Below are positions 958-15,147 of a stretch of DNA of 40,856 nucleotides, in pieces. The stretch is from Bacteroidales bacterium. GTDB taxonomy: Bacteria > Bacteroidota > Bacteroidia > Bacteroidales > F082. Each line of letters begins with the position of its first letter. Position 1 is the stretch's first letter. The position numbers and the translations under genes are program-made. The stretch is taken from contig JAFZKP010000024.1 of assembly GCA_017553625.1 (NCBI GenBank), forward strand, positions 1 to 40,856, given 5' to 3'. The notes under the pieces were generated by a model that had not been told where the DNA came from, ran no database searches, and worked only from the letters and a program-made list of their open reading frames with translations.

Positions 958-2936
958 ATTCCAAGTTCAATTAAAACTGTTTTCGTATCTACTTTTTCGC
1001 CTTCTTTAACATTGATTTTCATGACTTTAGCATCGCCTTTTGCCACAATGTTGTTTTCCATCTTCATAGCCTCAACAATGCAAAGGATAGTGCCGTAATG
1101 CACCTCGTCGCCCTCTTTCACGTTGATTTTCATCACGTTACCAGGCATTGGTGAGAAGAATTTCATATCGTCGCCAGCCACATCGGTATGCGAATAGTCA
1201 CGCATGTCGTTGAGCTGGTCGTCGCGACGGCAGACGAAATCCAAGCCGCGCAGATGCACGCAGTAGTCGTGATGCGGGGTCTGCGACACAAACACAGGCT
1301 CGGTGCGGCCGTTGATAATCACCTTTTGGACTTCGCCATTCTGCGAAAGCATTACAGAATAAGGCTTTCCGTTGATAACACATTCAAGGTTGGTGCCCGA
1401 AAGATGGTTGATCTGCACCTTCATCGACTCGCCTTCCACAGTGACGTTAAGCGACATCTGGAAACGCCAGTAACCTATTGAGTTCCAGACATTTGCAGCA
1501 TCCTGACGGTTGTTAAAATCGTGGAAAAGGAACAACGCCGCCACATCTTCTTTCTTGATGTTTTGGCGAGCCTGACGCATGGTCTCAACCAGCTCCTCCT
1601 GATGCTTTCCGCAATAGGAAGTATCAATTTTATTATTTGTAAAGTCTTGATTATCAATAATACTTTGCAGATAAGGGATATTCGTCTTCTCAGTCTGAAC
1701 GATATATTCCTTCAACGCTCTGCGAGTGATTTCTATTGCTTCATCTCTCGTCTTGCCAAAGCATATCAGCTTGGCGATCATCGGGTCGTAGCTGTCGCTG
1801 ATGGTGCAAGAACCGTCGATGCTGCTGTCGATACGCACGCCGCGCATCTGAGGCTCGTGATAGAGCGTCACCTCGCCTGCTGCCGGAAGGAAGTTATTCT
1901 CCGCATCCTCAGCATACACACGGCATTCGATGGCGTGACCCTTGTCCTGAATCATGTCCTGAGTCCAGCCCATCTCCTTGCCGCGAGCAATGCGAATCTG
2001 CTCCTCGACGATGTCGATTCCGGTGCGCTGCTCTGTGACAGGATGCTCCACCTGAATACGCGTGTTCATCTCGAGGAAATAAAAGTTGAGGTCTTTATCA
2101 ACAAGGAATTCAACTGTTCCAGCATTCTTGTAACCCACTGCTTTACAGAGGTTTACGGCGGTCTCGCAAATCGCCTGACGTTTCTCGGGAGTGAGTGTCG
2201 GCGACGGCGATTCTTCGATGATTTTCTGGTAACGACGTTGCACCGAGCATTCGCGTTCGTAGAGATGAATCACGTTGCCGTAATGGTCGGCAAGCACCTG
2301 CACCTCGACGTGGCGTGGGTTTTCGACATATTTCTCGACGTAAACCTCGCCGTCGCCGAAATATTTCTGCGCCTCGCGCGACGCTTTCTCGAGCTCGTCA
2401 CGCAAATCTTCTTTACTGCGGACTATGTGCATGCCTTTTCCTCCGCCGCCTGCCGCTGCTTTTATCAGCACAGGATAAGGAAGTGCCTCAGATTGCTTCA
2501 TGATGTCGTCCATGGTGCCGGTAACGCCAGTGGTCACTGGTATTCCGTGCGACTTGGCAAACTCACGGGCAGCGATTTTGTTACCCATCAAGCGCATGGT
2601 GTCGGCATCCGGACCGATGAAGATGATATTGTTATTGGCGCAAGCTTCGGCCAGTTCAGGACTTTCCGAGAGGAAACCATAGCCAGGATGAATGGCGTCG
2701 GCGCCAGTGTCAAGAGCCGCGTCGATAATCTTCTGAATATTGAGATAAGTATCTTTAAGTGCGCCGTTGCCGAGAGGACGAGCCTCGTCAGCCATACGAC
2801 GGTGCAGACTGTCGGCGTCGTTGTCGGCATAGATAGCTACCGAGTTGATACTCAGCTTTTTAAGCGTACGCATCACCCTCACCGCAATCTCTCCGCGGCC
2901 AGCAATCAGCACTTTATGAATCTTCTTCGAAGGCAT
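954..2936 (-). CDS. Biotin carboxylase / biotin carrier subunit of methylcrotonyl-CoA (acyl-CoA) carboxylase
   Basis: This 660-residue protein carries out ATP-dependent biotin carboxylation and also bears the biotin. In order it has the biotin carboxylase N-domain (IAGRGEIAVRVMRTL), an ATP-grasp glycine loop (KAAAGGGGKGM), the catalytic EMNTRIQVEHPVTE block, a linker, and a C-terminal biotinyl domain with the attachment motif EAMKMEN (about Lys625). The ATG at 2936 is chosen because the longer reading frame (to 2963) contains the promoter -7 box. The fused BC-BCCP layout is that of the alpha subunit of methylcrotonyl-CoA and propionyl-CoA carboxylases. The matching beta subunit, at 10144-11751, is methylcrotonyl-type, which favours leucine degradation. 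It is followed by the acyl-CoA dehydrogenase with a 4-nt overlap. Confidence 0.93.
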   Translation of the reverse strand: MPSKKIHKVLIAGRGEIAVRVMRTLKKLSINSVAIYADNDADSLHRRMADEARPLGNGALKDTYLNIQKIIDAALDTGADAIHPGYGFLSESPELAEACANNNIIFIGPDADTMRLMGNKIAAREFAKSHGIPVTTGVTGTMDDIMKQSEALPYPVLIKAAAGGGGKGMHIVRSKEDLRDELEKASREAQKYFGDGEVYVEKYVENPRHVEVQVLADHYGNVIHLYERECSVQRRYQKIIEESPSPTLTPEKRQAICETAVNLCKAVGYKNAGTVEFLVDKDLNFYFLEMNTRIQVEHPVTEQRTGIDIVEEQIRIARGKEMGWTQDMIQDKGHAIECRVYAEDAENNFLPAAGEVTLYHEPQMRGVRIDSSIDGSCTISDSYDPMIAKLICFGKTRDEAIEITRRALKEYIVQTEKTNIPYLQSIIDNQDFTNNKIDTSYCGKHQEELVETMRQARQNIKKEDVAALFLFHDFNNRQDAANVWNSIGYWRFQMSLNVTVEGESMKVQINHLSGTNLECVINGKPYSVMLSQNGEVQKVIINGRTEPVFVSQTPHHDYCVHLRGLDFVCRRDDQLNDMRDYSHTDVAGDDMKFFSPMPGNVMKINVKEGDEVHYGTILCIVEAMKMENNIVAKGDAKVMKINVKEGEKVDTKTVLIELGI

Positions 2937-13152: not shown

Positions 13153-13626
13153 TTAAGGGTGAATAAGATGATACCTTCTAGTGATAGTATATGTCTTTGT
13201 GCCGTAATGCTTGTTTCCATTAGCATATAATCTATCAACATACCTAAATTCAACATACAAATAGTCATTGCAATCGTAATGATCGCTTTCTTCCCCATAT
13301 GTTACAACAACATAACCTTTACCATGTCCATAATCGGGTGAAACAGAAGCTGAAGCCTCAAAATGAGATTTATCCAAAGTAACAGACCATTCTGAGTTCG
13401 AATCAAAATAGACTTTGGTGCTACCTGCATGATAGTCTAAATTGGTGCCTGTACTATTGAAATAGAAATAATAAGTTGTAGTACCACCATTATTGTTTCC
13501 ATTGCCAATTGTATCATTTGTTGTGGTGTTTGTATTTGTGTTTGAAGCAATATCATTCTTTTTACATGATACAGCAGCAAACAACACCAATACCATTAAC
13601 AAATAGCATAATCGTTTGAGTTTCAT
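13153..13626 (-). CDS. Lipoprotein with BACON-like beta-sandwich domain
   Basis: 157 residues from the ATG at 13626. The frame extends to 13752, but that extension lies in the structured leader. The lipobox is LVLFAAVSC, giving an N-terminal lipidated Cys followed by a Ser/Thr/Asn/Gly linker. The domain after it reads GSTKVYFDSNSEWSVTLDKS then ASVSPDYGHGKGYVVVTYGE, the rhythm of BACON domains (N..W.V, a turn, then G.g...V.V.Y). BACON domains occur in Bacteroidetes surface proteins and are thought to bind carbohydrate or mucin; here that is inference. It is transcribed from a distant promoter at 13981 through about 350 nt of structured RNA. Confidence 0.75.
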   Translation of the reverse strand: MKLKRLCYLLMVLVLFAAVSCKKNDIASNTNTNTTTNDTIGNGNNNGGTTTYYFYFNSTGTNLDYHAGSTKVYFDSNSEWSVTLDKSHFEASASVSPDYGHGKGYVVVTYGEESDHYDCNDYLYVEFRYVDRLYANGNKHYGTKTYTITRRYHLIHP

Positions 13627-13639
13627 TTCGAATCTCCCT

Positions 13640-13980
13640 GATTTGTGTCGGGCGCAACTTTTAATTATGCCTACTCTCAACTGCAGTTTTCGGCATCCCT
13701 GCTTTGAGTCGGCGGTTGTTGTTTGGAAAATAAGCGGGGAAAAGAAAGGCATGAACCCTTTTCAACCACTTATTCTCATCGATGGTGTCTGGAATAACCA
13801 TATAAACAAATAAGTGTGAATGATTCACGCCTAAAAGCGCGAACTTCAGCAATCTTATTCTCGTTTATATGTAACAGTTTTCCAGACTTTACGATGAGAG
13901 AACAAGAGCGTCAGCTCAATATGTCTTTTTATCTATTTCGTTGTTATTATTACATTTTTTTGCTTTTAATTTTCACTTTG
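13640..13980 (-). ncRNA. Long structured leader RNA with pseudoknot, upstream of the lipoprotein gene
   Basis: The 400-nt gap 13627-14028 has no convincing gene but folds extensively on the minus strand. Stems, in plus coordinates: 13775-13781 with 13892-13898 (CTCATCG/CGATGAG); 13787-13794 with 13880-13887 (GTCTGGAA/TTCCAGAC); 13799-13807 with 13863-13871 (CATATAAAC/GTTTATATG); 13809-13814 with 13854-13859; 13825-13830 with 13837-13842; 13729-13737 with 13766-13774; and 13676-13680 with 13704-13708. The loop of the last stem (GGCAT, 13692-13696) is complementary to ATGCC at 13667-13671, forming an H-type pseudoknot just before the start codon. This nesting is far beyond chance. Riboswitch-like leader, independent RNA, or mobile-element RNA are all possible. 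Confidence 0.6.
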
Positions 13981-13988
13981 CAAAGGTA
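13981..13988 (-). promoter_or_regulatory. -7 box for the structured leader
   Basis: TACCTTTG on the minus strand (TAnnTTTG), placed about 75 nt before the outermost stem of the RNA and 355 nt before the lipoprotein ATG. No closer match to the promoter consensus is seen. Confidence 0.5.
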
Positions 13989-14028: not shown

Positions 14029-15147
14029 TCAAATATCGCATCGTAGCAAATCACCACAATTTGCCCTCACCTCCTCATAAATTTCTTTGCAACGTTGTTC
14101 TGACATGCGATTTTTAACACCAACAATTATCATATCTTTTAAAGCCGGATGCCCGGTGCCGTTTATTGAAGTGGCATGTTCGCCGTTGTAGCCCTCGGTA
14201 CAGAGAGTGAGGTCGTAAGCAGGCGCCAAGTGCCAATGATAATGGCCATGGTCATCATCTTCAACATAGAAACTGAAATTCTTGCAATGGTCGTCCTTGT
14301 TGTCTGTCAAATAGTTGAACACCATTCTACGGAACATCTCTTCCACTTCTTTTGGATTCTGAGTAAGAAATCCTGTCAAAGCAAGAAGATTGTTGTAGTC
14401 GAGGAATGGCGTTGACAATGACAAGCAAAGCAGGCCTCCTGCCGTTGCTGTGTGAATGCGTTTCCCGTCACTTGCTATATCAAATCGGCGAGTGGTGAAA
14501 TAACGGCCGTTAGTAAGCTTGAAGTCGGACACGGTAATTCCGCATCGGCGGGCAACGTCATTATAATGGAATTCCTGAAGACCAATATCAGTTGGATCGT
14601 AAGTGTGACGGAATTTCACAATCCAATGACCGTCGCTGTCAGAAAACACAGCCTTAGGACGAGCGCCTCCACTGTTTCCGCTGTTGTAAAGCAAAAGTCC
14701 GGCATCGGTATCCTGCTGCTCCTTCAACACCTCCAACGCTTTTGTTTGCAAATAGTCAAAATCTGTTTGCTCAACATCATTCAAAATCACAGTTTCGGGA
14801 TAATATGACAGCGCACCCATTCCTCCATTACCGACAATGCTCAATTTGTCAAGAGCAGACAAGTCGGAATCGTTGACACCTTGCCGCATCAATGTCTTGT
14901 GCAACAGATAACGGCCATATCCATCCGGAAGACTATCCTCAAATATGCCGAAACCACCATTAAAAGGTTGCAGTTTTGCAATAAAAAGCCCAGTTTTTAA
15001 AGGCAATTCAAAAGGAGAAATGCTAAAACCGTCGGCAAGCCATGCTTTGTCGTACTCAAACGCGCAAAGACGATTGTCAGGCGTAAGTGACATGGTTCCG
15101 ACCTTTCGTCCGCGATAATTCACTGTTAGATTGTCAACTTTTATCAT
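14029..15147 (-). CDS. hipA: HipA-family serine/threonine kinase toxin
   Basis: 372 residues, a complete single-chain HipA. The N-terminal coupling domain (about 1-100) reads VDNLTVNYRGRKVGTMSLTP. The central kinase part has the Gly/Ser loop YNSGNSGGARPKAVF and a WIVKFRHTYDP strand. The catalytic loop reads NYLTDNKDDHCKNFSF and the metal-binding DFG-like segment LAPAYDLTLC. All kinase residues seem intact. HipA kinases phosphorylate tRNA synthetases or other targets and induce growth arrest. The ATG overlaps the hipB stop in an ATGA, so hipB is translated first and coupled, as expected for this module. Confidence 0.92.
   Translation of the reverse strand: MIKVDNLTVNYRGRKVGTMSLTPDNRLCAFEYDKAWLADGFSISPFELPLKTGLFIAKLQPFNGGFGIFEDSLPDGYGRYLLHKTLMRQGVNDSDLSALDKLSIVGNGGMGALSYYPETVILNDVEQTDFDYLQTKALEVLKEQQDTDAGLLLYNSGNSGGARPKAVFSDSDGHWIVKFRHTYDPTDIGLQEFHYNDVARRCGITVSDFKLTNGRYFTTRRFDIASDGKRIHTATAGGLLCLSLSTPFLDYNNLLALTGFLTQNPKEVEEMFRRMVFNYLTDNKDDHCKNFSFYVEDDDHGHYHWHLAPAYDLTLCTEGYNGEHATSINGTGHPALKDMIIVGVKNRMSEQRCKEIYEEVRANCGDLLRCDI

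Follow-up and report, generated by a model that had tools for sequence, protein, structure and literature searches.

A widespread leader RNA family of Bacteroidota and Fibrobacterota with two mutually exclusive folds

The described RNAs closest to the one reported here, which we call element A, are transcription attenuators and transcriptional riboswitches. Element A resembles them in lying in a 5′ leader ahead of a co-oriented gene, in having mutually exclusive antiterminator-like and terminator-like folds, and in carrying a U-tract. It differs from them in having no known ligand or tRNA, in the depletion of ATG from its leaders, and in its downstream genes, which are surface, modification and other accessory genes and not members of one pathway. 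A metabolite riboswitch would therefore be unusual here. A further difference is that the two halves of element A are near reverse complements of each other, with complementary tip loops.

A second group of comparable RNAs is the FopS and GibS sRNAs (PMC11697453, PMC7366714), which, according to the portions of these reports available to us, share with element A multiple copies, a promoter, a terminator and their occurrence in Bacteroides. FopS is described there as a single-stranded 5′ stretch followed by a terminator hairpin (PMC11697453), whereas element A, compared with FopS and GibS at the level of these partial descriptions, is mostly paired in both of its folds and does not have that architecture. 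The same partial text places six further paralogous sRNAs of B. thetaiotaomicron beside transposases or invertases (PMC11697453). Finally, palindromic candidates including HMP2_1032 and HMP2_4205 were listed in 2021 (PMC8040213). As described in the part of that report available to us, they are, like element A, from Bacteroidetes, palindromic, terminator-like and near TonB or TPR genes, but that part gives neither a two-state model nor a function for them. The candidates as described there may include pieces of the element A family. In the open-licence literature searched by title and abstract, together with a word look-up in PMC11109978 and PMC8632094, no description of the family was found. 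From comparison of its sequences, we propose that element A is a cis-acting, bistable (two-state) transcription attenuator, a reading to which we give a probability of roughly two in three.

Two conserved elements in one leader

The window, meaning the whole stretch of DNA analysed, is 40,856 nucleotides long. Within it, a spacer of 400 bases between a HipA-like gene and a lipoprotein-like gene holds two separate conserved elements, each with its own matches in related genomes: element A at about 13917-13740 on the minus strand (model match 13917-13741, minus) and the DUF805b-like element B at about 13703-13630 on the minus strand. In the list below, z values compare each strand's own partner with swapped partners.

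15147-14029, minus strand: HipA-like gene, the upstream neighbour
13981..13988, minus strand: promoter box TACCTTTG, of the -7 type of Bacteroidota, read from the sequence
13920..13924, minus strand: ACATA motif directly ahead of the first hairpin (59 of 102 leaders, 12 expected)
13906..13917, minus strand: hairpin H0, GAGCTGACGCTC, seen in the alignment and the leader listing
13898..13906, minus strand: b1, CTTGTTCTC, partner b2 in the two-hairpin fold (z 9.1) or b4 in the rod (z 3.9)
13892..13896, minus strand: 5′ strand of P1, from own versus swapped partners
13880..13886, minus strand: 5′ strand of K, TCTGGAA, the loop of local hairpin Ha, from the K pairing counts
13863..13870, minus strand: 5′ strand of P2, ATATAAAC, from own versus swapped partners
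13854..13862, minus strand: b2, GAGAATAAG, partner b1 or b3
13837..13844, minus strand: 5′ strand of H4, GTTCGCGC, formed in the rod only (97.6% of cells paired)
13823..13831, minus strand: H4b, GGCGTGAAT, partner the 5′ strand of H4 in the rod (z 7.8) or the tail in the terminator (z 12.9)
13808..13814, minus strand: b3, CTTATTT, partner b4 (z 13.6) or b2 (z 3.8)
13800..13807, minus strand: 3′ strand of P2, GTTTATAT, from the swap test and pair counts
13788..13794, minus strand: 3′ strand of K, TTCCAGA, the loop of local hairpin Hb, from the K pairing counts
13777..13781, minus strand: 3′ strand of P1, CGATG, from the swap test and pair counts
13766..13774, minus strand: b4, AATAAGTGG, partner b3 or b1
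13748..13758, minus strand: tail, GGGTTCATGCC, which closes the terminator-like hairpin in the fold of the 3′ half
13740..13747, minus strand: TTTCTTTT, an interrupted U-tract, from the count of T runs over copies
13668..13703, minus strand: element B, DUF805b-like, which holds AUGCC/GGCAU (RF02914)
13632..13668, minus strand: conserved sequence GTTGCGCCCGACAC..AATCAGGGA between element B and the start codon, from short BLAST matches in genomes of the same genus
13153..13626, minus strand: downstream gene for a lipoprotein-like protein of 157 aa, with no match in Pfam or NCBIfam

The promoter-like sequence of the initial annotation is TACCTTTG, found at 13988-13981 (minus). TTTG at 14012-14009 (minus) lies 20 nt upstream of it, and we take the two to be a promoter on the assumption of a -33/-7 consensus in Bacteroidota. 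Immediately upstream of the leader, an HTH gene and the HipA-like gene form a toxin-antitoxin pair (15482-14029, minus). The same annotation had called the leader devoid of a credible gene, and none was found between the end of the HipA-like ORF at 14029 and the start at 13626. Eight frames of at least 20 aa overlap 13735-13985. One is the lipoprotein ORF extended back to an ATG at 13752, its signal peptide beginning at 13626; five of the others were scanned across element A in the window, and no Pfam family was matched, so that the match to a protein family that had been named as grounds for abandoning an RNA did not appear. Because only 18 of 102 element A cores are free of stops in a forward frame, a shared protein frame across the element is unlikely.

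The minimum free energy (MFE) of 13990-13620 (minus) is −93.6 kcal/mol, against −72.9 ± 5.9 kcal/mol in shuffles (z −3.5), with none of 100 shuffles as low. All three stems quoted at the outset are present in this structure. The view that no known class matches also stands for the main part, element A: Rfam 15 returned 0 matches in the window at the gathering cut-off, and at permissive thresholds nothing overlapped element A in the window, in 10 distant loci or in 15 B. faecis loci.

Element B scores 30.5 bits against the DUF805b RNA (RF02914; E 1.2e-6), below the cut-off of 35.6 bits. Its alignment to RF02914 contains the conserved GCCGAAAA and AGAGUAGGCA with their spacing, and on the basis of this core it is likely a relative of the DUF805b RNA that falls below the cut-off. 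In common with that RNA it is a 35-nt motif shortly ahead of a start codon; the difference is that the gene behind it is without a Pfam match and is thus not a recognised DUF805 gene. Of 128 distinct copies of element A, 6 are followed in the next 350 nt by the pattern of element B, which indicates that the two are independent modules. The AUGCC/GGCAU pairing proposed at the outset is therefore present, but it belongs to the separate element B and lies outside the main fold, and a start-codon pseudoknot was rejected as a part of the main RNA on the same count. The sequence GTTGCGCCCGACAC..AATCAGGGA also stands ahead of other start codons, with or without elements A and B (L009, L016, L017 and L018).

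Copies and distribution of element A

It is virtually certain that element A is a real and widespread structured RNA family. A BLAST search with the window leader located 3 more sites in its own genome and gave matches in 28 of 60 genomes (matches to element B counted), and by covariance model the window genome has 11 copies of element A. A first model, R1, was made from 15 aligned copies and a second, R2, from 101. With R1, matches came from 92 of 99 genomes in the genus, from 64 of 247 sampled across the order and from 14 of 247 sampled across the phylum; with R2, 62 of 295 genomes in the class gave a match; the window genome is included in all of these tallies, as it is in the 28 of 60. Fibrobacterota, to which Fibrobacter succinogenes belongs, gave matches in 27 of 60 genomes, the richest with 21 copies; in a control phylum, that of the cyanobacterium Scytonematopsis, 0 of 59 genomes match.

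Among named genomes, for which the R2 search covered 18 of 19 loci or genomes (L131 left out), Bacteroides faecis MAJ27 carries 15 copies, Bacteroides sp. 214 carries 6 and Rikenella microfusus 8; two Alistipes genomes have 12 and 18, and four from Fibrobacter or Fibrobacterales have 6, 9, 10 and 18. R2 found no copy in the nine other genomes of this search, among them a Bacteroidota, Aquiflexum, and a genome from Balneolales. The 128 distinct cores reduce to 102 at 88% identity. The alignment of 101 copies represents 100 of these 102 loci, with L136 (the weakest match) and L164 omitted and L145 giving two copies.

Loci with two copies of the RNA, separated by about 0.9 to 3.2 kb, were seen in Bacteroides sp. 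214 (L145, 3960-5018) and in Fibrobacterota (L303, L304, L306, L307 and L308). BLAST of the window leader gave one weak, chance-like match against plasmids and none against phages. A Bacteroides copy matched one Parabacteroides distasonis plasmid (L214, 6001-6109, by BLAST match alone), between an HTH gene and a response-regulator gene, and no phage. A scan for stretches yielded at least 117, 80 of them among the matches listed. Two stretches from the pattern scan lie in viral contigs, and the model confirmed neither. Nor did it confirm pattern matches in Nostoc, Scytonematopsis, an archaeon, an alphaproteobacterium, a Nitrospinota bacterium and others.

Two mutually exclusive folds

Two folds can be drawn for element A. 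In fold I the RNA would form a long rod (b1:b4, P1, K, P2, b2:b3) with the apical hairpin H4, in which H4b and b3 are locked up. In fold II it would form two hairpins, b1:b2 in the 5′ half and H4b:tail with b3:b4 in the 3′ half, the latter followed by the U-tract as a putative intrinsic terminator.

In 96 of 101 copies the P1 strands pair better with each other than do 95% of swapped combinations (z 38), and for P2 this holds in 78 of 101 (z 30); these statistics, like the shuffles below, ignore the kinship of the copies. The sequences of P1 and P2 are wholesale different among copies, and complementarity is kept. By the same comparison K reaches a z of 17, b3:b4 13.6, H4b:tail 12.9, b1:b2 9.1 and H4 7.8, against −1.5 to 0.6 in controls. 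The rod-specific b pairs covary weakly (b1:b4 z 3.9, b2:b3 z 3.8), and those of the two-hairpin fold more strongly (z 9.1 and 13.6).

Across the 101 copies, 92.8% of rod cells are paired (slid controls 35.5-43.3%) and 35 of 39 pairs have changed on both sides, against 22.6 in shuffles, with none of 500 shuffles as high; these counts lean towards the rod because the alignment was fitted to it. The nested stems of the initial annotation thus do covary. For the two-hairpin fold, none of whose pairs is in R1, the model that made the alignment, and which therefore had no such help, 88.3% of cells are paired (slid controls 37-57%) and 21 of 31 pairs have changed on both sides, against 13.4 in shuffles, again with none of 500 as high. 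Two conserved and mutually exclusive folds are what an attenuator calls for.

The K pairs, also absent from R1, were counted in fixed columns, which involve no choice of offset: 95.7% of cells are paired and 6 of 7 pairs have changed on both sides. The 6-nt tip loops are exactly complementary in 95 of the 97 copies that could be parsed (of 101), across several loop types, a figure favoured by taking the partner loop as the best of 15 offsets. One control in this loop test, HaL:HbR, gave a z of 3.4 and the other −0.5, so that small z values are unreliable in it. A kissing loop as the sole structure was rejected, as the same K pairs nest within the rod.

H4b:tail is paired in 83.3% of cells (at one position up to 36 of the 101 copies lack the pair), and for the inner Hb stem the figure is 62.3% (fixed columns). 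Folding the 3′ half by itself gives the closed H4b:tail helix in 92 of 101 copies. Read individually, 13 of the 15 B. faecis 3′ halves close in this way (not L262 and L269), and that of the window gives one long hairpin of −29.2 kcal/mol with H4b:tail closed, directly before TTTCTTTT. In contrast, the H4b:tail helix is found in only 4 of 101 full-length MFE structures, and from this difference it is likely that the two folds compete. The initial annotation had read every stem as part of a single nested set, and for that reason overlooked the terminator-like fold, which is also conserved and excludes the first.

The absence of the H4b:tail helix from 97 of 101 full-length structures would also be expected of a constitutive leader that forms only the rod and sets mRNA stability or ribosome access without any switching. 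We consider this improbable: b1:b2, b3:b4 and H4b:tail are conserved and covary though they are impossible in the rod, and a U-tract is present. For the attenuator, the full-length energies, which favour the rod (mean −60.8 versus −49.3 kcal/mol), imply that the terminator must form kinetically or be induced. As expected of an attenuator, a terminator-like hairpin (92 of 101 copies) goes with a T run of at least 5 in 73 of 102 copies. Against it, the U-tract of the window is interrupted, and in 20 of 102 copies the longest T run is 3 or shorter.

On the sense strand, G-U pairs exceed A-C mismatches in both the rod (244 versus 52) and the two-hairpin fold (300 versus 69). It is therefore the transcript, and not the DNA, that does the pairing.

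Genomic setting and a proposed attenuator

In the 200 nt ahead of the element, 77 of 101 copies have TAnnTTTG, where 14 are expected, and the other 24 lack the exact motif. In 114 of 119 cases the closest ORF downstream runs in the same direction as the RNA (median distance 62 nt for these), while upstream ORFs are mixed (80 plus, 42 minus; n=122). These ORFs are longest frames, so some true starts may be further in, and of the 128 copies 9 gave no downstream and 6 no upstream ORF. A promoter upstream and a co-oriented gene downstream is the position of a leader, again as expected of an attenuator.

A promoter box before most copies and a U-tract after them would equally suit a free-standing, trans-acting sRNA with its own promoter and terminator, the downstream gene being independent, and multicopy sRNA families are known from Bacteroides (FopS has 14 members according to the part of PMC11697453 available). 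The close and almost uniform co-orientation of the downstream gene argues against this, as does the scarcity of TAnnTTTG boxes in the downstream stretches (6 of 99). Of the 114 co-oriented ORFs, 12 have their ATG inside the core or no more than 2 nt from its end, which leaves scant room for a second promoter, with the reservation that 4 of the 12 are longest frames that may start later. An independent sRNA seems unlikely to us, although the two ideas are not exclusive, and the short transcript left by attenuation could also act in trans.

Attenuation by a leader peptide was rejected, no conserved short reading frame having been found in 102 leaders. ATG is depleted in them (present in 49 of 102, 66 expected), which disfavours a leader peptide, and short start-stop frames occur in 35 of 102 against 24.1 ± 4.3 expected, an excess too weak to claim.

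The genes downstream of element A are diverse: secreted proteins, TonB receptors and small HTH proteins are among their products, and so are DNA methyltransferases behind chosen copies from Fibrobacterota. The main Pfam set comprises 116 first co-oriented genes within 700 nt. Commonest among the 25 of 79 families listed for it are TonB plug, CarboxypepD_reg-like and weak HTH_7 (7 each), Por_Secre_tail (6) and LRR_5 (5); N6_Mtase and WG repeats have 3 each. Small HTH proteins of the IHIG type, grouped in one cluster, are encoded behind 24 of 71 copies (35 ORFs in a partly redundant pool). In 8 of 9 loci from class-mates outside the order there is an ORF belonging to one cluster, SusC/TonB-like to judge from its sequence. 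In a non-random sample of 21 high-scoring Fibrobacterota copies, 19 have a co-oriented first gene and 11 of these 19 encode DNA methyltransferases (5 N6_Mtase, 3 N6_N4_Mtase, 1 D12 and 2 C5), and several of these carry restriction-modification domains of type I or type III. A set of 17 first genes (15 from B. faecis, 1 from Rikenella and 1 from Alistipes) includes BspA-type LRR, BACON and RibD-like proteins and one hybrid sensor kinase. The other 10 copies in the window genome each precede a co-oriented ORF, several with signal peptides by eye. The leader proposed by the initial annotation stands as a structured 5′ UTR that is most likely cis-regulatory, but its family is not tied to lipoprotein genes.

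Upstream, co-oriented genes (75 of 77 in the Pfam set) include PIN_3 in 6 of 75 and DUF1016, zeta and Schlafen-type genes in 2 each; PIN, zeta-like, DUF2442 and DUF1016 genes were noted upstream of some other copies. In three loci of upstream cluster c2 (L039, L042 and L047), the RNA and a small HTH gene lie 3′ of a thrS-like (threonyl-tRNA synthetase-like) gene with differing secreted-protein genes behind the RNA, a possible site of cargo exchange. In B. faecis, serine or tyrosine recombinase-like ORFs lie, by eye, about 200 nt before the RNA in L257, L259 and L260, and an rteR sRNA (RF04181, 94.6 bits) lies near one copy, at 1407-1487 (minus) of L267.

Such neighbours raise the question of a DNA-level element, either an integron-like recombination or insertion site or a miniature transposon, at which neighbouring cargo is exchanged. 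It would account for the varied cargo that follows the RNA at a single chromosomal location, 3′ of the thrS-like gene, for the PIN, zeta, DUF1016 and Schlafen-type genes upstream, for the three recombinase-like neighbours in B. faecis, and for the quasi-palindromic sequence, through which the reverse strand also matches weakly. The sense-strand excess of G-U speaks against it, as do the one-sided promoter box and U-tract, the upstream genes on the minus strand (42 of 122), and P1 and P2 strands that are wholesale different yet complementary. We judge it very unlikely as an account of element A, while cargo exchange at the site may still occur. Unlikelier still is the antitoxin RNA of a type III-like toxin-antitoxin module. 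ToxIN has the order promoter, RNA, terminator, gene, which the layout of element A resembles, and toxin families are among the upstream neighbours; no toxin, however, is among the downstream Pfam families listed (25 of 79, 12 of 12 and 23 of 23).

In the attenuator that we favour, transcription would start at the Bacteroidota promoter and run through the two near-complementary halves, with the folds competing as the RNA emerges. Formation of the rod would let the polymerase read into the accessory gene, whose start in some copies is right where the U-tract finishes, whereas fold II would stop the polymerase and leave a short RNA. The 5′ half would act as a built-in antisense of the terminator loop. 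In antisense RNA pairs, pairing starts by loop-loop contact; by analogy, the complementary 6-nt tip loops could nucleate the exchange from two hairpins to the rod. The balance might be tipped by a ligand or protein acting at the conserved loops on either side of K, by the speed of transcription, or by chance.

More tentatively, and with the odds against it, element A might represent a dedicated class of RNA switches in Bacteroidota and Fibrobacterota, each copy deciding whether its own gene is read; the genes under such control would be phage-facing accessory ones (restriction-modification, receptors, surface proteins). As the folds would compete during transcription, cells of the same clone could then differ without any change of DNA. 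Invertible promoters occur in this bacterial group, and such a class would be their RNA counterpart, or else a response to one global signal common to the copies. Reaching about 20 copies in some genomes of gut and rumen bacteria, and spanning two phyla, the family would be a sizeable undescribed class of leader RNAs, and many surface, TonB-receptor and DNA-methyltransferase genes would share one kind of RNA-level control. It would also offer hundreds of natural variants for direct tests of attenuation by competing folds.
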